The notes under the pieces: model-generated
The model's input: only the letters and a program-made list of their open reading frames with translations
The model's database searches: none
What the model was told of the DNA's origin: nothing
Translations under genes and position numbers: made by a program
Part shown: piece after piece, positions 2,031 to 50,838 of the stretch
Layout of the letters: every line of letters begins with the position of its first letter
Numbering within the stretch: the first letter of the stretch is position 1
DNA from: Streptomyces lydicus
GTDB lineage: Bacteria > Actinomycetota > Actinomycetes > Streptomycetales > Streptomycetaceae
DNA: 64,000 nucleotides
Direction: 5' to 3'
NCBI RefSeq assembly: GCF_001729485.1
Contig: NZ_CP017157.1
Span: 2,914,001-2,978,000 of the forward strand

Positions 2031-2888
2031 ATGAGCGAGCGCACCGCGCACCGGCCCGCAGCGGCCCCGGACCGCTGGCGGGTCATCTGGCAGGACACCT
2101 TCGACGGCGACGCGGGCGCACCCCCGGACCCGGAGCGCTGGCGGACCGTCACCGGCAGCCCCTTCGGCGCCGGCGTGGAGGAGCACACCGACGACCCCGG
2201 GCACCTGGCGCTCGACGGCGACGGGCACCTGCGCCTGACCGCCACGTACGAGGCCGGTACCGGCCCCGACGGCACCGGGGGCCGGTACCGGGCGGCGTGG
2301 ATCGAGACCCGGCGGGAGGACTTCGTTCCCCGCCCCGGCGGCGCGCTGCGCATCGAGGCCCGGGTCCGCACCGCCCCCGGCAGCGGCCTCGACTGCGCGA
2401 TGTGGGCCTGGGGCACCCAGCTGCGCCACCGTGGTGACGAGGACCCGGTGCAGGCGTGGTACCGGGCCGGAGAGATCGACGTCTTCGAGGTGCTCGGCTC
2501 CGAACCCGACTCCGTCTGGGGCGCCGTGCACTCCCCGGAGTGCCACCAGATCCCCTCCCTCGGCATGGGCGCCCCCACCACCACCGGCGACGGCAGCGCG
2601 CTCAGCGACCGGTTCCACACCTACGCGGTCGTCTGGCGGCGCGACCCCGACTCCCTCACCTGGTCCCTCGACGGCCGCGAGTACCTGCGGCTGACACCCG
2701 AGGACACCACGCCCCAGGGATGGCTGTTCCGCCAGCCCGTCTTCTTCTGCCTGGCCGTCATCATCGGCAGCCCGGGCGGACCGGTGCTGCCGGGCACGCC
2801 GGACCCGTCCGCGTTCCCGTCCGCGCTGCTCGTCGACCACCTGACCATCTCCGAAGAGACCGAACCGACCGAGGGGACACGGGCGTGA
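2031..2888 (+). CDS. GH16-like enzyme, TrdE family (copy 1)
   Basis: Protein of 285 aa with a GH16 (laminarinase-type) fold and the complete catalytic signature EIDVFE (Glu148, Asp150, Glu153). There is no signal peptide, which argues against extracellular glycan hydrolysis. In tirandamycin biosynthesis the GH-family enzyme TrdE forms a double bond of the polyketide, so a tailoring dehydration or cyclisation role is the best inference. I chose ATG 2031 because it follows GGAAAGGA by 4 nt and matches the paralogue's length; an ATG at 1986 overlapping the TEII stop is the alternative. The stop overlaps the next GTG. A paralogue lies at 20772-21626. Confidence 0.85.
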
Positions 2889-4432
2889 ACCAGCCCACCG
2901 CACAGGACCTCCATCCGCTGATCACCGAGCTGGTGCACGACGTCCGCCGGGATCCGACGGGCGCGCTGGGCCCCTCCGTCTACGAGACGGCCCGGCTCAC
3001 CGCGCTGGCACCCTGGCTCCCGGGCCATGCGGAGCGCCTCGCCTTCCTCCTCGACGGGCAGAACCCGGACGGCAGTTGGGGCGGCCCGGACGGCTACGCG
3101 CTGGTCCCCACCCTGAGCGCGATACAGGCCCTGCTGTCGCTCCTCGACCGGGAAGGCCCCGAGGCGCCGCCCGCCCCGCGGGACGCCGTTGCCTCCGCCG
3201 CCACCCGCGGACTGACCGCCGCGGCCGCGATACTCGCCAAGAGCGAGCAGCAGGCCGTACCGTCCACCGTCGTCCACTTCATGATCATTCCGGCCCTGGT
3301 GGAGGACATCAACGCGCGGCTGGCCGCCCCGCCGCCCGGCATCCCCGGGACCGCCCTGCGCCCGCTGCCGCTGCCGCACGGCATGACCGACGCCGTGTTG
3401 CGCCAGCTGCGGACGGATGCCTGGCGCAACCCGCTGGCCGGCCACTACCTGGAGATCGTCGGGCCGGTCGCGGTCAACGCCGCCGAAATGCGGCCCGTCG
3501 ACGGGGCCGTGGGCTGCTCGGCCGCGGCGACCGCGGCCTGGCTCGGCCCCGACGAACCCGCCGACCCGGATCACCCCTCCGTCCGCTTCCTCACCGCCAC
3601 CCAGGCCCGGCTCGGCGGACCGGTCCCCGCCATGACCTCGCTGACGTACTACGAACGGGCCTGGATCCTGGGCAACCTCGCCACCGCGGGCGCCCCCGTC
3701 GACCTGCTCGCGCCGCTGGCGGAGGGACTGCCGCCCGAGGTCGGACGCTCCGGCGCGCCCACCGCACCGGGCTTCGCCTACGAGGCCGAGACCAGCGCCA
3801 TCGTCCTGACGGCGCTCGCCCGGCTGAACGCCCCGGAGGAGCCCCACTACCTGTGGCAGTACGACGCGGGCAGCCACTTCATGTCCACCCTCCCGGAACA
3901 CCAGCCGTCCAACACCACCAACGCCCACGTCCTCGAAGCGCTCGGCGGCTACGCCGACCACCGTCCCGCCGACGCCGCCCGCTACCGCGAAGCGGTCACC
4001 CGGATCGCCCGCTGGCTGGGGGAGCGGCAGCAGCCGGACGGCAGCTGGTCGGACAAGTGGCACGCCTCCCCGCTCTTCGCCACCGCACGCTGCGTCCTCG
4101 CCCTGCACCGGCACGCCGGCGCGCAATCCGCCGCAACGGTGCGGCGGGCCGTCAGTTGGGTGCTGCGCAACCAGCACGACGACGGCTCCTGGGGCCACTG
4201 GGGCGGCACCGCGGAGGAGACCGCGTACGCGGTGCGGATCCTCCTGGACACCCGGGCCGAGGGGGACCAGGAGGTGGTCGCGGCGGCGTTGCGCGGCCGC
4301 GACCACCTCCTGCGGCACGGCCTGGGCGACCGCCATCCGCCCCTGTGGATCGGCAAGGAGCTCTACACCCCCGCCCACATCGTGCGCGCCGCCGTCCTGG
4401 GCGCACTGCTGGCCGCGCAGCGGCTCGACTGA
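2885..4432 (+). CDS. Class II terpene-cyclase-like protein with degenerate DXDD motif
   Basis: 515-aa alpha-barrel protein of the squalene/class II diterpene cyclase (prenyltransferase-squalene oxidase repeat) family. Family landmarks are NPDGSWGG near residue 60, SNTTNAHVLEAL, DGSWSDKWHASP and GTAEETAYAV. At the position of the catalytic DXDD acid motif it reads E300-A-E302-T, so the general acid is Glu at best and the fourth Asp is lost. No prenyl synthase or terpene gene is nearby, and the product contains no terpene, so it probably acts on the polyketide, perhaps by acid-assisted cyclisation to the bicyclic ketal (inference). GTG 2885 overlaps the GH16 stop (GTGA). Confidence 0.8.
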   Translation: MNQPTAQDLHPLITELVHDVRRDPTGALGPSVYETARLTALAPWLPGHAERLAFLLDGQNPDGSWGGPDGYALVPTLSAIQALLSLLDREGPEAPPAPRDAVASAATRGLTAAAAILAKSEQQAVPSTVVHFMIIPALVEDINARLAAPPPGIPGTALRPLPLPHGMTDAVLRQLRTDAWRNPLAGHYLEIVGPVAVNAAEMRPVDGAVGCSAAATAAWLGPDEPADPDHPSVRFLTATQARLGGPVPAMTSLTYYERAWILGNLATAGAPVDLLAPLAEGLPPEVGRSGAPTAPGFAYEAETSAIVLTALARLNAPEEPHYLWQYDAGSHFMSTLPEHQPSNTTNAHVLEALGGYADHRPADAARYREAVTRIARWLGERQQPDGSWSDKWHASPLFATARCVLALHRHAGAQSAATVRRAVSWVLRNQHDDGSWGHWGGTAEETAYAVRILLDTRAEGDQEVVAAALRGRDHLLRHGLGDRHPPLWIGKELYTPAHIVRAAVLGALLAAQRLD

Positions 4433-4486: not shown

Positions 4487-5731
4487 TCAGGCGCGGTGCA
4501 GACGGACCGGGAGCGTCCGGAGGCCGCGGATGAGCGTGCTGGACCGCCAGCGCAACTCGCCCGGTGGGACCGCGAGTTCCATCCCGGGGAAGCGCTGGAG
4601 CAGCGCGTCGAAGGCGATCCGGGCCTCCAGCCGGGCCAGCGGCGCGCCCAGGCAGTGGTGGATGCCGTGCCCGAACGCCAGGTGGCCGCCGTCCGCGCGG
4701 GAGACGTCCAGGTCGTGCGGCCGGGGGAACCGCCGCGGGTCGCGGTTGGCGGAGGCCAGCGACAGCAGCACGAAGTCCCCGGCGGGGATGTCCACGTCGC
4801 CGATGCGTACGCCCTGCGTGGCGCAGCGGAACGTGGCGTGCTTCAACGGGCCCTCGATCCGCAGGAATTCCTCGACCGCGGTGGGCAGCAGCGACCGGTC
4901 GGCGAGCAGCTTCTCCCACTGGTCGCGGTCCGCCATCAGATGGAACACCCCGTTGCCCAGGGTGTTGACGGTGGTCTCGTGACCGGCGACCAGCAGCAGG
5001 AACGTCATCGACAGCAGCTCGGTCTCGCTCAGCCGGTCCTCGTCGTCGCGGGCGGCCACCAGCATGGACAGCACGTCGTCGGACGGCGCGTGGCGCTTGC
5101 GCTCGATGAGGTCGCGCAGATAGCCGGTCAGTTCGGCCGAGGCGGTGGCGGCCGCTTCCGAGGTGCCACCGGCGACCAGCGCCCTGGACCAGGCGCTGAA
5201 GACCGCCTCTTCCCCGGCCGGTATCCCCAGCAGCAGGCAGATCACCGCGATCGGCAGCGGAAACGCGAAGCGGTCCAGGAGGTCCACGACGTCCTCGCCG
5301 TCCAGACCGTCCAGCAGGTGGTGGGTGAGGCGCTCGATGGCGGGGCGGAGCCGCTCGACGGCGCGGGTGGTGAACACGCTGTTGACGAGCCGGCGGAGCC
5401 TGGTGTGGTCCGGGGGGTCGCTGTGCAGCATGTGTGTGGCGAGGGAGGCGGAGAAGGCGCCGCGCTTGTCGCTGTCCGGTGCGTTCTGCGCGAAGAGAGG
5501 GTCCGTCCGGCGCAGATCGGTGCTGAGCCGGGGGTCGGCGAGCGCCGCGCGCACCGTGGCGTGGCCGGTCACGACCCACACCGGCAGGCCGCCGCAGACC
5601 GGGAGGTCCGGCGGGAGGACGACCCGGTGTGCCGGGCCGTCGCGGTGCAGTTCGGCGTAGAGGGAATGCGGGTCCTGCATGAAGGCGGCGTCGAGCTGCC
5701 GGAGGCGTGATCGGACCGGGTTCTCTGACAT
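4487..5731 (-). CDS. Cytochrome P450 (slgO-type tailoring oxidase, copy 1)
   Basis: 414-aa bacterial class I P450 with I-helix AGHETT (249-254), ExxR in EEFLR (287-291) and the heme loop FGHGIHHCLG with ligand Cys360. It closely resembles the P450 at 21623-22864 (shared GGLPVWVV, RLSTDL and HMLHSD segments). Streptolydigin biosynthesis uses two P450s, SlgO1 and SlgO2, for polyketide oxidation; I cannot tell which one this is. The start follows GGAGGAAG by 7 nt. It is separated from the upstream exporter by a hairpin. Confidence 0.93.
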   Translation of the reverse strand: MSENPVRSRLRQLDAAFMQDPHSLYAELHRDGPAHRVVLPPDLPVCGGLPVWVVTGHATVRAALADPRLSTDLRRTDPLFAQNAPDSDKRGAFSASLATHMLHSDPPDHTRLRRLVNSVFTTRAVERLRPAIERLTHHLLDGLDGEDVVDLLDRFAFPLPIAVICLLLGIPAGEEAVFSAWSRALVAGGTSEAAATASAELTGYLRDLIERKRHAPSDDVLSMLVAARDDEDRLSETELLSMTFLLLVAGHETTVNTLGNGVFHLMADRDQWEKLLADRSLLPTAVEEFLRIEGPLKHATFRCATQGVRIGDVDIPAGDFVLLSLASANRDPRRFPRPHDLDVSRADGGHLAFGHGIHHCLGAPLARLEARIAFDALLQRFPGMELAVPPGELRWRSSTLIRGLRTLPVRLHRA

Positions 5732-5852: not shown

Positions 5853-7349
5853 TCAGGTGCCCGGGGCGACTTCCTCCTTGGCGGGCGCGGCCGGGGCCCG
5901 GCCCGGAGCCGGCGTCCGCAGGTCGACCTTGATCAGGGCCGCCGCGACGACCGCGGTGACCAGCAGGATCCCGCCGGCCCACAGGCTCGCCACCGCGTAG
6001 CCGTGCACGGTCGCCTCCGCGGTGGCCGCGGCTCCGGGAGCCCGGGAGGCCAGGGCGGTGGCCGTCACGCTCGTCGCGATCGTGTTGAGCAGCGCCGTCC
6101 CGATCGAGCCGCCGATCTGCTGCGAGGTGCTGACGAACGCCGAGACCACACCGACGTCGGTGGGCGGCACCTTGTTCGTCGCGATGTTGACGCACGGCGT
6201 CATCACCAGGCCCAGTCCGGCGCCGAGCAGGATCTGGGTGGGCAGCAGCGTCGACGCGTACGGGCTCTCCGGGGTCAGCCGGCCGAGGTTGAACAGTCCG
6301 GCCGCGGCCAGCAGCAGCCCCGGCGCCACCAGCAGCCGCACCGGCACCCGCGGCATGAGCCGGGCGGTGACCTGCGTCGTGGTGAGCACCGTCGCCAGGG
6401 TCGCCGGGAGCAGCGCCAGCCCGGCGCGGGCCGGTGAGTAGTGCATGACCACCTGGAGCTGGTAGGTCATGATCAGGAACAGCCCGAACATGCCGACCAT
6501 GGCCAGCGCGATGGTGAGGAAGCCACCGGCGCGGTTGCGCTCGGCCAGCACCCGCAGCGGCAGCAGGGGATCGCGGACCTTGGCCTGCAGCACCACGAAG
6601 GCGGTCAGCAGCACCAGCGCGGCCACCAGCAGGCCGACCACCCGGCCGGATCCCCAGCCCTCGTCCGCGGCCTCGCTGAAGCCGTAGACCAGCGCCACCA
6701 TGCCGCCGCTGGAGAGCACCGCGCCGGGGACGTCGATCCGCACGCCCCGCTGGGCCGGCAGGCCGGGCAGCAGCAGCCAGGCGCCGACGGCGACCAGGAT
6801 GCCGATGGGGACGTTGACGTACAGGCACCAGCGCCAGTTGAGGTACTGGGTGATCACGCCGCCGCAGAGCAGCCCCAGCGCGCCGCCGGCCGCGGCCACC
6901 GAGCTGAAGACGCCGAACGCCTTGGCGCGCTCCCGGGGCTCGGTGAACGTCGTGGTGAGCATCGCGAGGGTCGCGGGGATGAGGAGCGCGGCGAAGAGTC
7001 CCTGGGCGGCGCGGGAGCCGACCAGGACCGCGGCGGTCGGCGCGGCGCCGCCGGCCGCGGAGGCGGCGGTGAATCCGGCGACCGCGATGACGAAGGCCCG
7101 CTTGCGCCCGATGAGGTCACCGATCCGGCCGCCCAGCAGCAGCAGTCCGCCGAAGGCGAGGGTGTAGGCGGTGATCACCCACTGCCGGTCCGCGTCCGAC
7201 ATGCCCGTGGAGCGCTGGGCCCAAGGGAGGGCGATGTTCACGATCGTGGTGTCCAGCATGACCATCAGCTGGGCGATCCCGATCACCGCCAGGCCCCACC
7301 ACCGGAAGCGCGCCTGCCTCGTGGTCGAGGCCGCGGTCGCTTGCGTCAT
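5853..7349 (-). CDS. MFS DHA2-family drug exporter (14 TM)
   Basis: 498-aa membrane protein of the EmrB/QacA drug:H+ antiporter family. It shows TM1 with LDTTIVNIALP (motif D1), the loop GGRIGDLIGRKR (motif A) and many hydrophobic helices to residue ~480. It probably exports the antibiotic. The start is ATG 7349 after GAGGAG, rather than the longer frame. A promoter with TTGACT/TTTACT lies upstream, its -35 covered by a TetR-type half-site shared with the divergent tetR, so it is likely repressed by that regulator and induced by the product. Confidence 0.9.
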   Translation of the reverse strand: MTQATAASTTRQARFRWWGLAVIGIAQLMVMLDTTIVNIALPWAQRSTGMSDADRQWVITAYTLAFGGLLLLGGRIGDLIGRKRAFVIAVAGFTAASAAGGAAPTAAVLVGSRAAQGLFAALLIPATLAMLTTTFTEPRERAKAFGVFSSVAAAGGALGLLCGGVITQYLNWRWCLYVNVPIGILVAVGAWLLLPGLPAQRGVRIDVPGAVLSSGGMVALVYGFSEAADEGWGSGRVVGLLVAALVLLTAFVVLQAKVRDPLLPLRVLAERNRAGGFLTIALAMVGMFGLFLIMTYQLQVVMHYSPARAGLALLPATLATVLTTTQVTARLMPRVPVRLLVAPGLLLAAAGLFNLGRLTPESPYASTLLPTQILLGAGLGLVMTPCVNIATNKVPPTDVGVVSAFVSTSQQIGGSIGTALLNTIATSVTATALASRAPGAAATAEATVHGYAVASLWAGGILLVTAVVAAALIKVDLRTPAPGRAPAAPAKEEVAPGT

Positions 7350-7417
7350 GTCGCTCCTCTTTCGTCTTCCCGCGCTCGTTGACGCAGGCCGGCGCGGCAC
7401 CGGACTGCGGTAGCAGC

Positions 7418-7446
7418 AGTAAAACCCAATTGCTTAACCGAGTCAA
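7418..7446 (-). promoter_or_regulatory. Exporter promoter
   Basis: On the minus strand, -35 TTGACT (7446-7441), a 17-nt spacer, and -10 TTTACT (7423-7418). The -35 lies inside the left operator half-site. Confidence 0.6.
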
Positions 7447-7479
7447 GATGTAAACCTGGTCACCTCCTTGACCCGGTTA
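7435..7479. promoter_or_regulatory. Candidate TetR operator (inverted repeat)
   Basis: TAACCGAGTCAAG (7435-7447) is repeated inverted at 7467-7479 (TAACCGGGTCAAG on the minus strand) with one mismatch. The two arms cover the -35 elements of the divergent exporter and tetR promoters. The same core recurs before the helicase gene at 10438-10449. Confidence 0.6.
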
Positions 7480-7500
7480 GCCTCGTGTTAGGGTGCAGGG
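7468..7500 (+). promoter_or_regulatory. tetR promoter, probably leaderless transcript
   Basis: -35 TTGACC (7468-7473) and -10 TAGGGT (7489-7494), 15 nt apart. The -10 ends six bases before GTG 7501, which would make the mRNA start at or next to the start codon. No Shine-Dalgarno is present. Confidence 0.5.
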
Positions 7501-8163
7501 GTGGAAGAGCGAGACGAGCCGATGGGGCTCAGGGAGCGCAAGAAGCAGCGGACGCGGCAGGCGATCTCCGACGCCGCGATCTCGCTGTTCCTCCAGCACG
7601 GGTTCGACCAGGTCTCGGTCGTGGACGTGGCGGCGACGGCCGAGGTCTCCAAGCCGACGCTGTTCAAGTACTTCCCGACCAAGGAAGACCTGGTGGTGCA
7701 CCGCTTCGCCGACCACGAGACGGTGGCGGGCGACATCGTGCGCGAGCGCCGCTCCGGCGTCTCGCCGCTCGCCGCCCTGCACCAGCACTTCGTCGACGGA
7801 CTGGCCCGCCGCGACCCCATCACGGGACTGAACGACGAGCAGGAGGTCCTCGACTTCCACGGACTGGTCTACTCCACGCCCAGCCTGCTCACCCGCGTGG
7901 TGCAGTACCAGAGCCGCGCCGAGGACGCGCTGGCGCAGGCGCTGGCGGAGGCGTTCGACGCCGGGCCCGCCGACCTCACGCCCCGGCTGCTGGCCGGTCA
8001 GGTCGTCGCCGCCCAGCGCATCCTGGCCGCGGCCAACTGGCAGCGGATCGTCGACGGCGCCACGGCGGACGGCAGTTACCCGCAGGCGGTCGCCGACGCC
8101 GACCATGCCTTCGCGCTGCTGGAGTGGGGGCTCGCCGGCCCCTCGGCCGCCCGCACCGCCTGA
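7501..8163 (+). CDS. TetR-family transcriptional regulator
   Basis: 220-aa repressor-type protein. Its N-terminal TetR HTH spans residues ~14-60 (ISDAAISLFLQHGFDQ, then STKPTLFKYF-like VSKPTLFKYFPTKEDL), followed by a ligand-binding helical domain. It is divergent from the MFS exporter and convergent with the HelD-like helicase; both of those promoters carry the AACCGRGTYAAG motif. It is most simply a product-sensing repressor of the resistance genes. GTG 7501 is taken because of the promoter position; ATG 7522 is the alternative. Confidence 0.92.
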   Translation: MEERDEPMGLRERKKQRTRQAISDAAISLFLQHGFDQVSVVDVAATAEVSKPTLFKYFPTKEDLVVHRFADHETVAGDIVRERRSGVSPLAALHQHFVDGLARRDPITGLNDEQEVLDFHGLVYSTPSLLTRVVQYQSRAEDALAQALAEAFDAGPADLTPRLLAGQVVAAQRILAAANWQRIVDGATADGSYPQAVADADHAFALLEWGLAGPSAARTA

Positions 8164-8238: not shown

Positions 8239-10338
8239 TCAGCCGGCCAGCGGCTCCGGCAGCGGGTCCGCGTGCAGCACGTCGAGGCGGGACACCGCAC
8301 GCGTCACGGCCACGTACAACCGGTGCAGGCCCCGCGGCTCGGCCGCCACGATGGCCGAGGGCTCCACGACGATCACGTGGTCGTACTCCAGGCCCTTGAC
8401 GACCTTCGCCGGCAGGACCGCGAGCCGCGCCGCCGTACCGACGTCCTCGGAGGTGGCGACCTCCAGGCCCGCCGCCCGCAGCGCCTCGGCCGTCCGCTCC
8501 GCCTCGGCGTCCGCGGTGATCACCGCGATGGCCCCCTCCTGCGTCAGCGCCCGGCGCGCGGCGTCGACCGTCGCGGACAGCAGGTCCGGCACCTGGCGGA
8601 CCGTCAACTCGCCGTCCTGACGCAGGGACCGGGCCGGCGGCACGTCCACGTCGAGCGCGCCCAGCAGCCGGTTGGCCAGGGACATCACGGCGGCCGGCAC
8701 CCGGAAGCCGGTGGTGAGTTCGGTGACCGTCCCCTGGGTCTTGCCCAGATGCGCCAGCTGCTCGGCCCAGGAGCGTGCCGCCCACGGCGCGGTGGCCTGG
8801 GCCAGGTCGCCCAGGACGGTGAGCGAACCGAAGCCGCTGCGGCGGGCGATGGCCCGGCACTGCATGGGGGAGAGGTCCTGGGCCTCGTCGACGACCACGT
8901 GGCCGAAGCTGCCGGGCCGCTCGATCAGGCCGGCGACCTCGTCGATCAACAGCAGGTCCTCGGCGGACCACTTGGCGCTCTTGACCGACCGCGGCGGCCT
9001 GTCCCACACCAGCGCCGCCTGCTCGTCGGCGTCCAGCAGCCCGTCCGCCGCCCGGGCCAGCGCCTCGGCATCGCCCAGCAGGCCGGCGACCACCTCCTCC
9101 GCGCGGACCGTGGGCCACACGGCGTCCAGGAAAGCCGCGACCGGGCGGCAACGGCCGATCTTCCGCTGCCAGGTCATGTTCTTGGGACCCGCCCGGCGCT
9201 CGGCCTGCTCCTGCACCAGCGACACCGCCCGCGAACGGACGTGTTCCCGCCCCACCGCGTACGGCGGCGCCTGCTCGCGGACCTCCTCGACGATGCGGCT
9301 CAACTCGTCGCCGTACACCCGCCAGCGGTAGGAGCCGTCGGGGACGGTGATGCCGTCGGGGACCGCGGTGACCCGGCTGTACAGGGCGCGCTCCAGTACG
9401 GCCGCCATTCGGTGGCTCTGCTTGACGGCCGCCGCCAGTTCACCGTCGACGGCCTGGACCGGGTGGTGGGCCACCACGTCCTCCACCGTGCACTGCGCGA
9501 TGTCGATCTCGCCGAGCGCCGGGAGCACCTGGGCGATGTAGCGCAGGAACGTCTGGTTGGGGCCGATGATCAGCAGACCGCTGCGCTGCAGCCGCTGCGG
9601 GTAGGTGTACAGCAGATAGGCCGCACGGTGCAGACCGACCGCGGTCTTCCCGCTGCCCGGTGCCCCCTGGATGCACACCGAGTCGGCCAGTTCACGGCGC
9701 ACCAGGTCGTCCTGCTCCGGCTGAATGGTGGCGGCGATGTCGCGCATCGGGCCGGTGCGCGGGCGCTCGATCTCGGCCGCGACGATCCGGCTCGCCCCGG
9801 CCGGTACGTCCTCCTGCCGGTCGAGGTGCTCGTCCTCCATGCCCGTCAGGTCCTTCGGCTCGCCGCTGCTGAGCGGTGCCCAGCCGAAGCGCCTGCGGAC
9901 CGCGACGCCCTGCGGCTCCAGGGCGCTCGCCTGATAGAAGGTGCGCGAGACCGGCGCCCGCCAGTCGACGACCAGCGGCGGCGCGGCCGGGTGCTCCGAG
10001 ACCCGGCGGCGCCCGATGTAGTAGCGCTGCCGGCGGTGGTCCCCGGTCTCCGGCGCGTCGTCGAAGTCCAGCCGGCCGAAGAAGAGCGGGCTGTCCGGCT
10101 CCTGAGCCATGTCCCGCGCACGGGTGCGCAGGTAACGGCCCAGCGCCTCCGCGCTCGCGCCGTCCCCCGAGACGTCCTGCCCCTCGGTGACCTGCAGGCC
10201 CGCGTCCTCGACCTGCCGGGTCATCGCGTCCCGGCACAGGGCGACGTACCGCCGCTCCTCGGCGAGTTCGTCGTCCAGCCCGGCGGCATCGCCGGCGCGG
10301 GAGTCCGGGGTGTACGCGTCCTGGGCGTATGACGTCAT
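8239..10338 (-). CDS. HelD/HelR-like SF1 helicase, RNA polymerase recycling and resistance factor
   Basis: 699-aa UvrD/Rep-type superfamily 1 ATPase of the HelD family. It has an N-terminal helical segment (about 20-50), the HelD hallmark YYIGRRRV ... VVDWRAPVSRTFYQ (106-136), Walker A GAPGSGKT (225-232), DEAQDLSP, and C-terminal motifs GLEYDHVIVV and YVAVTRAVSRL. HelD proteins bind RNA polymerase rather than unwinding DNA, and HelR of Streptomyces displaces rifamycin from the enzyme. Placed in the cluster of an RNA polymerase inhibitor beside an exporter, it is a strong candidate for self-resistance. ATG 10338 follows GGAAAGG by 9 nt. Confidence 0.9.
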   Translation of the reverse strand: MTSYAQDAYTPDSRAGDAAGLDDELAEERRYVALCRDAMTRQVEDAGLQVTEGQDVSGDGASAEALGRYLRTRARDMAQEPDSPLFFGRLDFDDAPETGDHRRQRYYIGRRRVSEHPAAPPLVVDWRAPVSRTFYQASALEPQGVAVRRRFGWAPLSSGEPKDLTGMEDEHLDRQEDVPAGASRIVAAEIERPRTGPMRDIAATIQPEQDDLVRRELADSVCIQGAPGSGKTAVGLHRAAYLLYTYPQRLQRSGLLIIGPNQTFLRYIAQVLPALGEIDIAQCTVEDVVAHHPVQAVDGELAAAVKQSHRMAAVLERALYSRVTAVPDGITVPDGSYRWRVYGDELSRIVEEVREQAPPYAVGREHVRSRAVSLVQEQAERRAGPKNMTWQRKIGRCRPVAAFLDAVWPTVRAEEVVAGLLGDAEALARAADGLLDADEQAALVWDRPPRSVKSAKWSAEDLLLIDEVAGLIERPGSFGHVVVDEAQDLSPMQCRAIARRSGFGSLTVLGDLAQATAPWAARSWAEQLAHLGKTQGTVTELTTGFRVPAAVMSLANRLLGALDVDVPPARSLRQDGELTVRQVPDLLSATVDAARRALTQEGAIAVITADAEAERTAEALRAAGLEVATSEDVGTAARLAVLPAKVVKGLEYDHVIVVEPSAIVAAEPRGLHRLYVAVTRAVSRLDVLHADPLPEPLAG

Positions 10339-10427
10339 CGATCGCGACCTTTCCGCAGTGACCGCCTTGCTGTGCTGCGTCCGCGCCGTCCGTACGCGGT
10401 ACGGCGCCGGCGGTGGTTGACGCGCAC

Positions 10428-10466
10428 AGCATAACTGAACCGGGTTAAGAGACTTACCGGGTTGCC
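10428..10466 (-). promoter_or_regulatory. helD-like promoter with TetR-type motif
   Basis: -10 TATGCT on the minus strand (10433-10428). AACCGGGTTAAG (10438-10449) lies immediately upstream between -10 and -35 and matches the tetR/exporter half-sites. ACCGGGTT is repeated directly 17 bp on (10439-10446 and 10456-10463). Confidence 0.5.
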
Positions 10467-10590
10467 CCTGTGCGGGGGCGGCGGTCCCGGGGGCGGGCCG
10501 CGCCGTCGCGTCCGCCCCGCGGAGGCGGGCCCGGAGCCGCCCCCTCCGTGTCCCGCGGGCGCCGGCCAACACCCCTGCCCGGCCACGCAG

Positions 10591-16373: not shown

Positions 16374-17692
16374 GAGGGCTCCCTCGTCGTCGGGTCCGGC
16401 CGCCGCTCGGCGGCCGGCTGCGGCCACAGGTCCTCCGGGGCCAGTTCGGCCACCGCGTACTTGCCCAAGGCACTGACCAGGAGCCGCAGTTCGAGCTCCA
16501 GGCAGGCGGTCAGCCGGATCAGCCCGCGGTCCGGGTCCTCGTCCGCGGCCAGCAGCGCCGCCCGGCCCAGACCGGCCGCGCGGGCACCCAGGGCCAGGCT
16601 CCTGGCCACCCGGCCGCCCTCCCACATCCGCCCGCTGACCAGCAGCGGGTGCGCCCCCGGACCGATCCGGCGCAGGCACTCGCCCAGGGGCAGCCCGACT
16701 CCGTCGAGGAAGGCGTGCGGTGCCCAGCCGGTGCCGCCCTCGGCGCCGTCGACGGTCACCGCGTCGGCACCGGCCTGCCATGCCACCGCCGCGGCCCGGT
16801 CCACGTCCCGGCCCGGGAAGAGCTTCACCCATACCCGGACCCGCGGATAGTTGCTGCGCATGAAGCGGATCTGCTGGCGCAGGATCTCCTCGGTGACGGT
16901 CCCCGGTGCGCTGCAGCGCAGCACGTCGCCCTTCTCGCCGAGGGTGTCCCGCACCCGGTAGCGGTCGGCCAGCCGGTCCGCTTCGGCCGCGTCCACCAGC
17001 GTCATCCCGCCCAGGCCCGGTTTGGCGCCCTGGCCGACCTTGAGCTCGAAGGCCAGCCGCCCGGAGGCCAGCAGCGGCTGGACGTGCGGGTCGCTGTGCA
17101 GCAGGTTCCACACCTCGGCGTCGGCGTCCTCGGTGCTCTGCTGCACGGCGACGCCACCGGCGCCGTCGGGCAGTTCGTCGGCGTACGCGCGGATGCGGCG
17201 CAGCAGGCCGGAGGCGGCGCCGGCGCCGTCGGACGCGGTGCCGGGCCGTCCGTAGCCGCTGACGGGCAGCACGTTCTCCCCGATGACCAGGGGCAGGCCG
17301 AGGCGTCCCGCCTGCCGGCCGACGGCGGTGCCGAGGCCGTCGCCGGCGGCGCGGGTCGAGCCGAACGCCGAGACGTACAGCGGCAGTGGGGCGTGGAAGC
17401 CGCCGATGTCGGTGGTCAGGTCGACATCGGAGTGCTGGGGCTCGCGGCCGAGTTCGATGAGCTTTTCCAGCCGCCGCGGCATGAACACCGGCGGCACCAG
17501 ACGCCCGGTCTCCAGCAGGTCACCGGGCGCGCCGTACGGGGCGCCCGCTTCGGGTGCGCCGGGGGTCGCGCCGAGCAGCGCGTGTCCGTAGCCGGACAGC
17601 GGCGGGAAGGCCGCGGCGGTGCCCGAGCGGGCCCGCTCACGCACCGCCGCCTCGGGGAACCCCGGGGCCGACAGGCCGCCGGCGCCGGTCAC
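16370..17692 (-). CDS. slgE3: FMN-dependent glutamate synthase-like protein
   Basis: 440 aa corresponding to the FMN/synthase (GltB2) domain of glutamate synthases. It has the barrel segments [41 protein letters not shown] and a C-terminal helical tail. The published SlgE3 is called a ferredoxin-dependent glutamate synthase feeding the mutase. No class II glutaminase domain is present and I see no clustered Cys for an Fe-S centre, so the ammonia donor and electron path are unclear. GTG 17692 overlaps the slgZ stop, and the stop overlaps slgN1 (GTGA both times). Confidence 0.88.
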
Positions 17693-18669
17693 AACGACAC
17701 CACGCCGGGGATCTTCGGGAACGCGGTGGCCTCCCAGACCGCGTCCAGGCCGCACACGTAGCGGGTCAGCCGCTCGATGCCGATGCCGAACCCGGCACTG
17801 GCCGGAATGCCTTCCCGGGCCACCTCCAGGAAGTGCTGGTACTTGCCGGGGTTCTCGCCGGTCTCCCGCATCCGGGTGACGATCCGCGCGTGGTCGAACT
17901 CCCGCTCCGCGCCGCTGATCAGCTCGCCGAATCCCTCGGCCGCCAGCAGGTCGAAGTTCCGCAGGGTGCCGGGCACTTCGGGGTCCTCGCGGTCGTAGAA
18001 ACCGCGCGAGCCCTTCGGGTAGCCGGTGACGAAGAACGGGCGGGTGGCCTTGCGGGACAGCATCGCCTCGCCCTCCCAGTCGATCTCCGCGTCCGGGTTC
18101 TGCTCGTGTCCGAGGACGGCCAGATCGGCGACCGCCGTGGCGTGGCTGAGGCGGTCGAAGGGCCGGGCGAGCAGGTCGGTGAAGGCGTCCGGGTCCCGGC
18201 CGAGCACGTCGAGGTCCTCGGGCAGCTGCTCGGTGACCGTCCGCACCGCGGCACGGACGAGGTCCTCGGCGACGCCCATCGCGTCCTGCGCGCCGGCGCC
18301 CGCGATCTCCACGTCGAACTGGTGGAACTCGGCGAGGTGCCGCTGGGTCGAGCAGGTCTCCGGGGGCTCCAGGCGGACGTTGGGCGCCACGCAGAAGATC
18401 TTGTCGAAGGTCAGCAGCGCCGCCTGCTTGTACATGATGGCGCTGGTCATCAGCTTGTAGCGGTGCCCGTAGTAGTCGACGTCGACCTGCTTGGCGCCGC
18501 GTCCGCCCGGGTCGGTGGCCGGGCCGATGACGGGCGGCAGCAGCTCGACGAAGCCGAGCGCGCGCAGATGGTCGCGGGCCGCGGAGACGATCTGCTGCTG
18601 GATGCGCAGAACGGCGCGGGTGCGGGGGCTGTCGAGGTGCTTCCGGGGTGAGGGCGGCAGCTGGCTCAT
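17689..18669 (-). CDS. slgZ: Asparaginyl-tRNA synthetase-like amide-forming enzyme
   Basis: 326-aa class II synthetase catalytic core of the Asp/AsnRS family. Motif 2 lies around RLEPPETCSTQRHLAEFHQF and motif 3 is GFGIGIERLTRYVCGL. A genuine AsnRS has an N-terminal OB-fold anticodon domain and about 430-460 residues; here the core begins almost at residue 1, so it is not a translation enzyme. It resembles the archaeal asparagine synthetase derived from AspRS. The literature implicates SlgZ with a methyltransferase in tailoring the 3-methylaspartate side chain (amide, then N-methylamide). RBS GGAG before ATG 18669. Confidence 0.93.
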   Translation of the reverse strand: MSQLPPSPRKHLDSPRTRAVLRIQQQIVSAARDHLRALGFVELLPPVIGPATDPGGRGAKQVDVDYYGHRYKLMTSAIMYKQAALLTFDKIFCVAPNVRLEPPETCSTQRHLAEFHQFDVEIAGAGAQDAMGVAEDLVRAAVRTVTEQLPEDLDVLGRDPDAFTDLLARPFDRLSHATAVADLAVLGHEQNPDAEIDWEGEAMLSRKATRPFFVTGYPKGSRGFYDREDPEVPGTLRNFDLLAAEGFGELISGAEREFDHARIVTRMRETGENPGKYQHFLEVAREGIPASAGFGIGIERLTRYVCGLDAVWEATAFPKIPGVVSL

Positions 18670-29618: not shown

Positions 29619-30461
29619 GTGAACACATCCCTGAACGCGTCGGACGCACCCCGGGCGGCCGCCTCCGCCACCCCGGACGGCTGGAAGGTCCTCCATGACG
29701 GCGGCCCCGGCGAGCTGGTGCTGGCCGTCGACTACGCCTCCACCGGCCGGCGCGAGTCCAGCTTCTTCGACATCGTCCCCAACCTGCCCGCGGACCGGAC
29801 GGTCTGGGAGACCACCCAGCCCCCGCTCGGGCAGGAGACCGAGATGGGCGGAGCCGCGTACGTGGCCCGCTGGATGCGCGCGGTCACGGAGTCCGGCCGG
29901 CACGTCCGGGCCGTCATGGGCTACTGCGTGGGCAGCGTCTTCGCGGCCGCGCTGGCCGAGGAGATCGGCCGCATCCAGTCCGAGCCGCCCGTGGTGCTGA
30001 TGTTCGACCCCTCCGTGCCGGTCTCGGTCAACCTCCGGCACGACTTCTGCAATGTCATCGACCACTACGCGACCATCCTCACCGAGGACGAGGTCCGCCA
30101 CTGCAAGGCCGAGGCGCACCGGCTGTTCGCCGAGGACGACGACTTCGACCGGCTGGGCGCGCGGTACTCCCGGATGTTCGAGGAGGTCGTGGAGACCGCC
30201 TTCATCCGCAGCGAACTGGACGTCGAGCTGGGCCGCGAACTGTCGGACACCTTCGTCTCCTTCGTCCGCTACCTGGTCGCCGCCCGGCAGGTGGACCCCA
30301 GCCGCGTCTGGGCCCGGGGCACCGCCGTCAGCTCACGGGACTCGACCCCGGCCGCCGACCTCGCCGGCCACGAGATCCAGTTCCACATCGACCACCTCGA
30401 CATCCTCCGCGACCCCGGCGTGGGCCGGGCGGTGACCGAGCTGCTGACCGCACCCCGCTGA
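29619..30461 (+). CDS. slgL: Dieckmann cyclase with Cys nucleophile (tetramate release)
   Basis: 280-aa alpha/beta-hydrolase. The nucleophile elbow is GYCVG with Cys103 instead of Ser; an Asp follows in VVLMFDPS (130) and a His in QFHIDHLDIL (256 or 259). This Cys-Asp-His arrangement defines the NcmC/TrdC/SlgL family that forms tetramic acid or pyridone rings by Dieckmann condensation of a beta-ketoacyl-aminoacyl thioester. It sits just before slgN2, whose carrier-bound substrate it should release. GTG start with a weak GAGG RBS. Confidence 0.92.
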   Translation: MNTSLNASDAPRAAASATPDGWKVLHDGGPGELVLAVDYASTGRRESSFFDIVPNLPADRTVWETTQPPLGQETEMGGAAYVARWMRAVTESGRHVRAVMGYCVGSVFAAALAEEIGRIQSEPPVVLMFDPSVPVSVNLRHDFCNVIDHYATILTEDEVRHCKAEAHRLFAEDDDFDRLGARYSRMFEEVVETAFIRSELDVELGRELSDTFVSFVRYLVAARQVDPSRVWARGTAVSSRDSTPAADLAGHEIQFHIDHLDILRDPGVGRAVTELLTAPR

Positions 30462-30515: not shown

Positions 30516-32648
30516 ATGTCACTCTCGACGGGGGCCACAGCGCGCACCGCCTCGCCCAAGGAACGGTCGCTGTGGATGCTCGACCGGCTCGTACCCGGTG
30601 CGGGCGCCAACAACGTCCCGGCGGCCCTGCGGATCGGCGGCCGGCTGGACCGCCCGGCCCTGCGGACGGCCCTGACCGCGGTGGTACGCCGCCACGACGC
30701 CCTGCGCACCGTCTTCCACGCCGCCGACGACACCCTCACCGCCTCGGTGCTCGCCCCCGGTGAGGCGGACCTGGACGTCCAGGAGATCGCGCCCTCGGCG
30801 GACGGGCCGCAGGCCGCCCTGACCTCCTTCGCCGCCCCGCCGTTCGCCCTCGACGGCCGCCCGCTGATCCGTGCGGGCGTCCTCGCCGACGGCGACGACG
30901 ACGTGCTCTGCTTCGTCGTGCACCACCTGGTCTTCGACACCGTCTCCGCGGGCGTCTTCACCCGCTCCCTGGCCCGGGCGTACGCACGGGTGCTGCGCGG
31001 CGAGCAGCCCTACCCGCCCGACGAGGGCACCGGACCGGTCCCGGTGCTGGACGAACCCGCCCCCCGGTCGCGGAGCACCGACTTCTGGCGCGACCACCTG
31101 GCCGGCTTCGACCCCGGCGCGCTGGAGACGGACTGCGGCACCGGCCACAACCCCGACCGCCCCACGCTGGCCGGCGGCAGGCTGGACCACACCCTCTCGC
31201 CCGGGGCGACCGCGGCGGTGCGCAAGCTGGCCAAGGAACTGCGCGCCCCCGAGGCCGTGGTGCTGCTCGCCGCCTACTACCTGCTGCTAGCCGCGCACGG
31301 CGCCGGCCCCGACCTGGTCGTCGGCACGCCCGTCAACGTGCGCGGCGACGGCGCGGCGGACGCCATCGGCTACCACGTCAACACCCTGCCGCTGCGGACG
31401 GCGGTGGACCCCGGCGAACCGTTCCGCGCGCTCGTCACCCGTACCCGGAACGTCTTCTTCGGCGCCCTGTCCCATGCGGATGCCCCGGTCGACGGCCTGC
31501 TCGGGGAGGTCGCCCGGCCCGGCGCGTCCTGGCGCGGCTCGCTCTTCCGCCATGTGTTCAACTACGTCCCCGCCCCGGGCGACGCCGGCCTGACCTTCGG
31601 CGACGCCCCGGCCCGCACGGAGCCCGCCGAGACCGGGTACTGCAAGTTCGACCTGGAGCTGAACGTTCTCGCGACGCCGGACACCCTCTCCCTGCGCGCG
31701 GTCCACGGCACCGAGGCGCTCGCCGAGGCGGACGCCCGGGCACTGGTGCGGCGCTACGACGCACTGCTGTCCGGCCTCGGCGAGGCGGCGGACCGGACCG
31801 TCGCGGAGATCGAGGTGGGCACCGACGCCGACCGCGCCGCGCTGCGGACCGGGTACGAGGAGACGGTCCGCGCCGGGGGAGCGGCCGGGTTCGTGGCCGC
31901 CCCGGACGGCCGGGAGGCGCTGCCCGGCGTGCGCGGTGAACTGTGCCTCGTGGCCACCTCCCGCCCCGCTGCCGACGACGGGTACGACGGCGAACACCCG
32001 CTGCACGGGCCGTACCGCCGTACCGGCGAACTGGCCCGCCGCGGCCACGACGGCACGCTGGAGGTCCTCGGCCGGGCGGACCGTCGGGTCACCGTCCACG
32101 GCGTACCGGTGCAACTCGATCGCCTGGAGGCCCTGTTGGCCTCCGAGGACGGCGTGCGCGCGGCGGCCGCGGTGCTGCGGAAGGGCGACGACACCGGCAC
32201 CGGCGGACTGGTCGCCTTCCTCGCGGCCCCCGACGACCCGCAGCTCCTGGACCGGCTGCGCAAGCGCGTCGGCGCCGAACTTCCGGCCGCCGCCGAACCG
32301 GGAGCCTTCGTGGTCCTGGACGCGCTGCCCACGGCCGCCGACGGGCGGCCGGACCTCGCGGAGCTGGAGCGCCGGGCCGCCGCCGACGGGGCCACCGGCG
32401 CCGGTGCTTCCGACGACTCCGACGGGCAGCTGCTGGCGGACCTGATCGAGCTGTGGCAGGACATCCTGGAACGCGACGACGTGGGCCCGCAGGCCAACTT
32501 CTTCGAGCTGGGCGGCCATTCGCTGCTCGCCGCGAAGGTGGCACAGCGCAGCGGCAAGCTGGCCGGCGTACGGGTCAGGCTCGCCGACGTCTTCGCCAAC
32601 CCCACCCCGGTCACCCTGGCCGAGCACCTGCGCGCGGCCCGCGCCTGA
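30516..32648 (+). CDS. slgN2: NRPS protein: condensation, adenylation remnant, carrier
   Basis: 710 aa. The condensation domain (residues ~12-435) has an intact HHLVFDT (136-142). From about 450 only the C-terminal subdomain of an adenylation domain survives (YRRTGELARR like A7, GRADRRVTVHG like A8; A1-A6 are absent and the A10 Lys is lost). A carrier domain follows with FELGGHSLLA, Ser669. The protein cannot activate an amino acid, so slgN1 must charge it. It joins the PKS beta-ketoacyl chain to 3-methylaspartate before SlgL cyclisation. No release domain is present. Good RBS AAGGAAGGG. Confidence 0.93.
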   Translation: MSLSTGATARTASPKERSLWMLDRLVPGAGANNVPAALRIGGRLDRPALRTALTAVVRRHDALRTVFHAADDTLTASVLAPGEADLDVQEIAPSADGPQAALTSFAAPPFALDGRPLIRAGVLADGDDDVLCFVVHHLVFDTVSAGVFTRSLARAYARVLRGEQPYPPDEGTGPVPVLDEPAPRSRSTDFWRDHLAGFDPGALETDCGTGHNPDRPTLAGGRLDHTLSPGATAAVRKLAKELRAPEAVVLLAAYYLLLAAHGAGPDLVVGTPVNVRGDGAADAIGYHVNTLPLRTAVDPGEPFRALVTRTRNVFFGALSHADAPVDGLLGEVARPGASWRGSLFRHVFNYVPAPGDAGLTFGDAPARTEPAETGYCKFDLELNVLATPDTLSLRAVHGTEALAEADARALVRRYDALLSGLGEAADRTVAEIEVGTDADRAALRTGYEETVRAGGAAGFVAAPDGREALPGVRGELCLVATSRPAADDGYDGEHPLHGPYRRTGELARRGHDGTLEVLGRADRRVTVHGVPVQLDRLEALLASEDGVRAAAAVLRKGDDTGTGGLVAFLAAPDDPQLLDRLRKRVGAELPAAAEPGAFVVLDALPTAADGRPDLAELERRAAADGATGAGASDDSDGQLLADLIELWQDILERDDVGPQANFFELGGHSLLAAKVAQRSGKLAGVRVRLADVFANPTPVTLAEHLRAARA

Positions 32649-50775: not shown

Positions 50776-50838
50776 GTTGACCTCGTCAACCGACCCGGTT
50801 AACTTCGCTCTACGGATTGTTGATTCCATTAAGCGGAA
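50776..50838 (+). promoter_or_regulatory. Operator-like repeats before the DUF6986 gene
   Basis: GTTGACCTCGTCAAC (50776-50790) is a perfect 6-bp inverted repeat. TTCC-N7-GGAA (50824-50838) is a second dyad resembling IclR-type (AllR) sites of allantoin/glyoxylate genes. AACCGGGTC is found inverted at 50792-50800. Probably control sites for 50885-52195. Confidence 0.4.

Follow-up and report, generated by a model that had tools for sequence, protein, structure and literature searches.

The closest described systems to the gene treated here are the HelR proteins of Streptomyces venezuelae and Mycobacterium abscessus (Class II), HelD of Mycobacterium smegmatis (MsHelD) and HelD of Bacillus subtilis (Class I). 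HelR is induced via a rifamycin-associated element, has rifamycin as its target and carries a primary-channel loop. In MsHelD this loop (residues 448-503, tip 482-DDED-485) reaches the active site, as stated in passages of PMC7749160, and residues of the loop tip are described in part of PMC10719064 as needed for rifampicin release and resistance. The same passages define Class III by a DWRX[A/S]P motif extended by one residue together with the absence of a primary-channel loop. The B. subtilis protein is also loop-less, yet its N-terminal domain reportedly confers protection from rifampicin (passages of PMC12802891); the arm of Class I is long and reaches the active site. As far as the literature passages found extend, protection by HelD or HelR has been described for rifamycins only. 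Here we report on a HelD-family gene within a 64,000-nucleotide stretch of Streptomyces lydicus (contig NZ_CP017157.1, positions 2,914,001 to 2,978,000; the window in the following), which lies in the gene cluster of the RNA polymerase inhibitor streptolydigin. The genome comprises 8,201,357 bp in one contig.

We propose, with a probability of about 70%, that the window HelD is a dedicated protector of RNA polymerase against the bicyclic-ketal tetramate inhibitors streptolydigin and tirandamycin, acting as a TetR-controlled target-protection or recycling factor without the HelR loop. Its family, its linkage to the cluster, the operator-like sites it has in common with neighbouring genes, its retention in decayed clusters and the missing loop are observations. 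Judged from these, it is a real and dedicated HelD and very probably belongs to a resistance regulon common to streptolydigin and tirandamycin clusters. In the titles, abstract starts and passages covered by our literature search, with most subscription papers lying outside it, no assignment of this role to HelD in either pathway was found. The gene and its landmarks are as follows:

8239..10338, minus strand: HelD-family ATPase without primary-channel loop, 699 amino acids, ATG start, matched by HelD/HelR models and aligned with MsHelD
9643..9666, minus strand: Walker A motif GAPGSGKT, residues 225-232
10138..10182, minus strand: predicted tip of the N-terminal secondary-channel arm, GQDVSGDGASAEALG, residues 53-67, placed at the arm tip by the MsHelD alignment only
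8911..8937, minus strand: position of the primary-channel loop, without the loop, residues 468-476; the loop is present in MsHelD, the HelR references and two paralogues of the same genome

The 699-residue HelD protein given in the preliminary description was confirmed by translation of the stop-free ATG frame, by codon-position GC, by family models and by the MsHelD alignment. Codon-position GC amounts to 0.77/0.52/0.93 in the open frame 8239-10572, the pattern of a real gene. HelD/HelR models match strongly, yet all remain beneath their curated cut-offs: the HelR models NF041258 with 322 bits (cut-off 1100) and NF041254 with 264 (750), further NF041465 with 288 (1051) and NF041464 with 176 (419). 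Pfam returned helicase fragments only. The nearest solved chain is MsHelD 6yxu_H (1.3e-73), and the N-terminal arm, the split 1A domain, the CO region and the 2A domain of MsHelD (6yxu, 6yys) align with the window protein. The features of the family, a DWRxP arm (DWRAP at residue 125), Walker A (residue 225), a split RecA fold with DEAQ (residue 484) and the HelD-specific CO insertion, are recognisable in the predicted protein. Walker A, DEAQD and DWRAP are kept in all 102 rows of the clade alignment, and the arm-tip motif GQDVSGDGASAEALG in 83 of the 102. In the second streptolydigin-type genome (G309) HelD is 98% identical, and the dN/dS of 0.106 between the two copies speaks for a protein under purifying selection. 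Seven residues (79, 223, 536, 594, 603, 661 and 677), each conserved in at least 95% of the other clade rows, are altered in both streptolydigin HelDs.

The neighbouring genes confirm that the streptolydigin (slg) cluster surrounds HelD, which had been placed by the preliminary description inside this gene set and beside an exporter and a TetR regulator. The order is P450 (-), MFS (-), TetR (+), HelD (-), mutase S (+). A palindrome of the pattern TTRACCNRGTYAA precedes HelD and recurs in the intergenic region of MFS and TetR or of HelD and TetR:

5853..7400, minus strand: MFS exporter of DHA2/EmrB type, with the true start perhaps near 7349
7501..8163, plus strand: TetR regulator, convergent with HelD
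7434..7446, no strand: candidate TetR-type operator TTAACCGAGTCAA between MFS and TetR, best match in the window (22.4 bits)
10436..10448, no strand: candidate TetR-type operator TGAACCGGGTTAA in the HelD promoter, second-best match (20.4 bits)
7468..7480, no strand: candidate TetR-type operator TTGACCCGGTTAG between MFS and TetR, third-best match (17.1 bits)
10433-10428, minus strand: TATGCT beside the operator of the HelD promoter

These three are the top matches in the window of a 13-bp matrix whose 13 sites all come from non-slg loci, each region contributing one; the TetR region of locus L019, the fourteenth, gave no site. On 20 Markov control sequences, scanned on one strand, the maximum was 15.6 bits. 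A fourth match at 50777 (15.1 bits) was rejected as no better than random sequence. It forms, together with a site of 10.3 bits, a pair at 50777-50802 outside the cluster, between a mycothiol-S-transferase-like gene and a DUF6986 gene and likewise at chance level. The operator was detected upstream of HelD in 16 of the 16 loci listed, which represent the slg, tirandamycin-type, stand-alone and Kitasatospora-type groups; four loci beyond these have it as well. TATGCT stands beside it in 14 of the 16 (missing in L017 and L021). The promoters of HelDs in the wider clade, viewed at seven loci, have a different palindrome or none that was seen. Genome-wide, 21 exact matches to TTRACCNRGTYNA were counted versus 11 for the reversed control, which is weak on its own; the only two matches that start with TTAACC both lie in the streptolydigin cluster. 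A genome-contig scan for HelD relatives was evaluated for the best 80 of 528 loci. Among these, a TetR with 49-72% identity to the window TetR is present in 72 loci, within 250 bases of HelD in 68 of them and about 6 kb away in L013, L014, L015 and L022; no TetR relative was found in the other eight. On this pattern of sites, HelD and the exporter seem to be under one common regulatory switch.

The same gene is found in TIRANDAMYCIN clusters, where HelD has 74% identity to the window protein. It lies between SlgF-like and LuxR-like genes in the tirandamycin-type clusters of L013, L014, L015, L022 and G274. In the first four the order is SlgL-like, nonribosomal peptide synthetase (NRPS), SlgF-like, HelD, LuxR-like, P450, MFS and TetR, with a GH-like gene read ahead of SlgF in L015 and L022 and an oxidase past TetR in L014, L015 and L022. 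L012 contains the left part of such a cluster through HelD, which stands beside SlgF at the contig end. L014 is Streptomyces composti SBST2-5, a source of tirandamycin B with one cluster 86% homologous to tam (passages of PMC10038987), and G274 agrees in chromosome length with Streptomyces tirandamycinicus, the reported source of tirandamycins A and B (passages of PMC6424883). The HelD between the F and H positions of the tirandamycin cluster (tam/trd) is probably the published TamG/TrdG, a name deduced from the alphabetical gene order. Its position and its 74% identity mark it as the same gene as the window HelD; gene order and the placement of P450, MFS and TetR differ between the tirandamycin-type clusters and slg. 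Two genes of the window were used as independent starting points:

2885..4432, plus strand: SlgF-like cyclase-repeat protein, marker of this antibiotic family
29619..30461, plus strand: SlgL-like protein, probable Dieckmann cyclase, named after its cluster position and passages of the nocamycin paper (PMC5466765); no Pfam or NCBIfam match

The search for SlgF covered 394 Streptomycetaceae and 392 Streptomyces genomes, two overlapping draws, the second evaluated for matches at 1e-120 only. At 69% identity or more it occurs in S. lydicus itself (G000), G309, G274, G992 (the genome of L012) and G965 (the genome of L015); the next best match in the family draw has 46%. In this test, which is independent of HelD, this HelD was located within 10 kb in five of the five genomes, own genome included. 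HelD is, among them, a constant member of the clusters for this drug family. The SlgL-like protein was rejected as a cluster marker because it is too broad: 51 of the 394 genomes have a match, and HelD is near on the same contig in three (G000, G309 and G274). From this low number most SlgL-like genes seem to be tied to other products, although split assemblies may hide cases. SlgF-like proteins at 37-50% identity were also set aside, since they apparently mark another cluster; no HelD was detected within 10 kb in the 20 genomes searched (17 from the class search alone, G144 from both searches, G306 and G268 from the family search, with 13 further family hits left out). Eighteen of these 20 have a HelD match (1e-60), the nearest about 58 kb from SlgF, and split assemblies may hide some. 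In the nocamycin cluster a 664-residue 'helicase', Orf2, is listed ahead of the named ncm genes (PMC5466765, Table 3). The proteins nearest to Orf1 and Orf2 both come from another Saccharothrix and carry consecutive accessions, as far as that table and the passages around it go, so Orf2 may be a mere chromosomal neighbour. A possible third cluster type was seen on a 12.1 kb contig of Streptomyces lacrimifluminis (L024), where TetR and a HelD of the wider clade (67%) are followed by SlgL-like, NRPS and P450 (61%) genes before the contig end cuts the locus.

Decayed clusters provide a further line of evidence. In the genomes G271, G873 and G385 a tirandamycin-type cluster lies in pieces within the 20 kb read, and the other cluster genes are fragments or were not found. 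The residues retained in G873 are 106 of 1029 (NRPS), 65 of 277 (GH-like protein), 188 of 504 (SlgF), 72 of 941 (LuxR) and 200 of 510 (oxidase). G271 retains 94 of 498 residues (MFS exporter), 97 of 229 (next gene) and a SlgF piece of 108 residues at 44%; G385 retains 54 of 498 (MFS exporter) and 50 of 229 (next gene). In all three, HelD and TetR are full length and stop-free, with the operator ahead of HelD. The dN/dS of the G271 HelD is 0.117 versus L022 and 0.149 versus L015. A 25-row tree, bootstrapped 200 times, never (0%) unites the three relics, and its well-supported branches force at least two changes, which may be gains or losses according to a warning of the program. Since HelD and its regulator were kept while even the exporter was lost, as would be expected of a resistance gene, these relics argue for a role in resistance. 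Six further members of the clade are HelD-TetR pairs: L016, L018 (whose contig appears again as L318), L019, L020, L281 and L317. No cluster pieces at 50% identity or more were found around them in the stretch examined; L020 has unrelated NRPS-like genes nearby.

A housekeeping HelD was considered as the identity of the window gene and ruled out by phylogeny and by a separate genus-wide paralogue elsewhere in S. lydicus. Besides the window gene the genome contains four HelD-like loci, of which one has 49% identity and three are more distant. A genus-wide copy at 48-53% was found in 49 of 50 genomes searched, which had been chosen for holding a SlgL-like gene; it is partial in G195 and G116, and the sole exception, G131, is a split assembly of about 1260 contigs. 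A copy at 60% or more occurs in 18 of the same 50. In a 62-row tree, whose distant out-group row has a long branch flagged by the program, nine genus-wide copies make up one separate clade (100/100). Another clade (99/95) unites the two streptolydigin HelDs with six from tirandamycin-type clusters and six others, and a Kitasatospora-rich clade adjoins it. The phylogeny suggested by the preliminary description thus places the window HelD outside the genus-wide clade, and the grouping with a HelD common to all Streptomyces, named there as a refutation, was not seen. Its notion of a dedicated copy also holds, given the linkage to exporter and TetR, the apparent co-regulation and the recurrence in clusters of a second tetramate that inhibits RNA polymerase. 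The genus-wide paralogue (own copy at 7434640) resembles the window HelD in overall build and in the absence of the loop. It differs by its separate clade, by the arm-tip motif, found in none of 13 copies, and by its 5-kb own locus, in which no TetR relative was found. We know of no role for this paralogue (L094, G000:C1:7434640-7436667), which may represent a distinct housekeeping class that the three-class scheme does not separate.

The preliminary description also spoke of a HelR-type protein, and this was not borne out: the rifamycin-expelling loop is missing, both HelR cut-offs are missed and no rifamycin-associated element was listed near the gene. Among the window sites listed at five mismatches or fewer to the consensus of this element, the best has four, and none is near HelD. 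In the alignment the window HelD, the clade members shown and the genus-wide paralogue are without about 50 residues of the primary-channel loop (MsHelD about 459-510), whereas the HelR references and the own-genome copies at 4163440 and 4439617 retain it, with acidic residues in the own copies. Thus the window protein shares with HelR the SF1-like two-RecA ATPase, the DWRAP motif and, as proposed, a drug-linked role at RNA polymerase, but it has no loop, a TetR-type operator and a place in tetramate clusters. The lack of about 50 loop residues and a score under the NF041465 cut-off likewise separate it from MsHelD. Two classes do not fit: an acidic-tipped loop, as in Class II, is missing, and DWRAP is not extended as in Class III. 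With regard to Class I, the loop is absent in both, but the arm aligns without a long extension, having about the length of the MsHelD arm and a different conserved tip.

With the loop missing, the HelR mechanism is out for the window HelD, and the N-terminal arm and the clamp-opening domain are the remaining candidate parts. The B. subtilis HelD cited above sets a precedent for protection by a loop-less protein. A ligand of TetR, binding to polymerase, drug expulsion or recycling and resistance are predicted on the basis of the genomic evidence. The TetR repressor, for which the antibiotic or an intermediate is probably the releasing ligand, would control its own gene, the exporter and HelD through the common operators. 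The N-terminal arm of HelD probably enters the secondary channel while the CO domain would open the clamp; drug-paused complexes would be dismantled, and the drug pocket (bridge helix, trigger loop and beta) would be deformed and emptied. According to passages of PMC10274647, the complexes on which streptolydigin acts are paused ones, and the drug prevents the trigger loop from folding. Because Gre factors, which also enter the secondary channel, strengthen streptolydigin and are modelled to lock the drug in (same passages), we would favour clamp opening and disassembly of drug-paused complexes over displacement by the arm.

An alternative route to self-resistance is a change of the target. 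The positions 485-486 of the RpoB open frame, which we take to be a site reported to give streptolydigin resistance in the producer, are Leu-Asp in S. lydicus and G309 and Phe-Glu in 11 of 14 genomes compared. The same loop of RpoB carries streptolydigin-resistance changes in Escherichia coli, and the beta subunit of S. lydicus is reportedly involved in streptolydigin resistance, as the title of a paper has it. G303 also has Leu-Asp, though without a SlgF match and without a HelD of this clade, which indicates that Leu-Asp is not tied to the cluster; the loci compared here, G000:C1:483572-485392 (L217) and G303 (L216), would fit a Leu-Asp that predates or outlives it. The common Phe-Glu was found in five of the five tirandamycin-cluster genomes tested (G274, S. 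composti, S. violaceorubidus, NBRC 110035 and S. actuosus, with L013 left out). These genomes therefore show no target change at 485-486, and export and HelD are their visible resistance candidates.

Self-resistance of S. lydicus might accordingly consist of an altered RpoB, with Leu-Asp for Phe-Glu, plus export, while HelD merely recycles polymerases that stall in the course of production, whatever the cause. The RpoB residues of S. lydicus and G309 are in line with the first part, and general recycling of stalled polymerase by HelD proteins is described in passages of PMC10719064. We regard this explanation as unlikely, for Leu-Asp also occurs in G303 without the cluster, the five tirandamycin-cluster genomes keep HelD without Leu-Asp, and retention in the three relics together with operator sites common to HelD and exporter suggests a drug-linked role. 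That the window HelD works exactly as HelR does, pushing the drug from its pocket with the primary-channel loop, has next to no probability: the family is the same and HelR models match over much of the length, but the loop with the acidic tip (482-485), whose residues rifampicin resistance requires, is missing even though two own-genome paralogues keep an acidic loop. Very improbable, too, is a helper or regulator of cluster transcription, for instance in polymerase cycling on long polyketide synthase (PKS) operons, that is no resistance gene. HelD is indeed divergent beside biosynthetic genes with the operator in the common promoter region, but in three genomes that have lost the biosynthetic genes it persists undamaged together with TetR, and elsewhere it stands alone with TetR. 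A common Streptomyces TetR-HelD pair could finally have come by chance to lie at the edge of an ancestral cluster and hitch-hiked since. The commonness is real, with a close HelD copy (1e-220) in 125 of 295 Streptomyces genomes (at least 71% identical in seven) and the TetR in 72 of the best 80 of 528 loci; still, we give this account hardly any credence, as HelD lies inside both the slg and the tirandamycin-type cluster despite their different gene orders, is the part kept on cluster decay and has the same operator type as the exporter region.

Some observations weigh against a dedicated protector. S. lydicus RpoB has Leu-Asp at the presumed streptolydigin-resistance site, so HelD may be only auxiliary in this strain. 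The missing loop is not an adaptation to streptolydigin, since the genus-wide paralogue lacks it as well. Gre factors, which enter the secondary channel too, are reported to keep the drug locked in instead of expelling it, as cited above. Regarding distribution, HelD is near on the same contig in 3 of the 51 genomes with a SlgL-like gene; 125 of 295 Streptomyces have a close HelD, but no more than 3 of 392 have SlgF of this type; and a SlgF-like gene is present in the stretch in five of the best 80 of 528 loci (L012-L015 and L022 only), most TetR-HelD pairs being without such a cluster. The operator test was not fully blind because the seed of the pattern was chosen after the slg promoters had been viewed; in addition, the L019 TetR region without a site was omitted from the matrix, and the controls were scanned on one strand only.

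If the proposed protection of polymerase by this HelD is true, polymerase motors can specialise against different drugs, here against inhibitors of another site, and the survival of tirandamycin producers with ordinary RpoB would be partly explained. More tentatively, at a chance we would put somewhat under even, there may be a second actinobacterial route that is independent of the HelR loop: a loop-less HelD group under a drug-sensing TetR would free polymerase from tetramates at the bridge helix and trigger loop, would be standard in streptolydigin and tirandamycin clusters and, once the cluster is lost, would remain as an environmental resistance cassette. A natural test set is at hand in the producers, the decayed clusters and the stand-alone HelD-TetR pairs, and HelD genes in clusters are a possible guide to new RNA polymerase inhibitors.

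The remainder of the cluster in the window comprises a PKS end, deoxysugar genes, an adenylation-domain NRPS, a glycosyltransferase and a LuxR-type gene, named from reading its translation only, besides the genes given above and the following:

4487..5731, minus strand: cytochrome P450
10470..12493, plus strand: methylaspartate-mutase S and E subunits, transcribed away from HelD, the first with an uncertain start
17689..18669, minus strand: asparagine-synthetase-like protein (SlgZ-like)
30516..32648, plus strand: NRPS condensation-carrier protein (C-T)

Other arrangements of HelD with a regulator were seen outside Streptomyces. In Nonomuraea gerenzanensis (L011) TetR and a HelD of 56% identity are divergent instead of tandem. 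On a plasmid of Cellulosimicrobium cellulans (L249, 7947-9971) a HelD of 43% identity lies beside a MerR regulator, with an MFS transporter and peptide chain release factor 3 close by.

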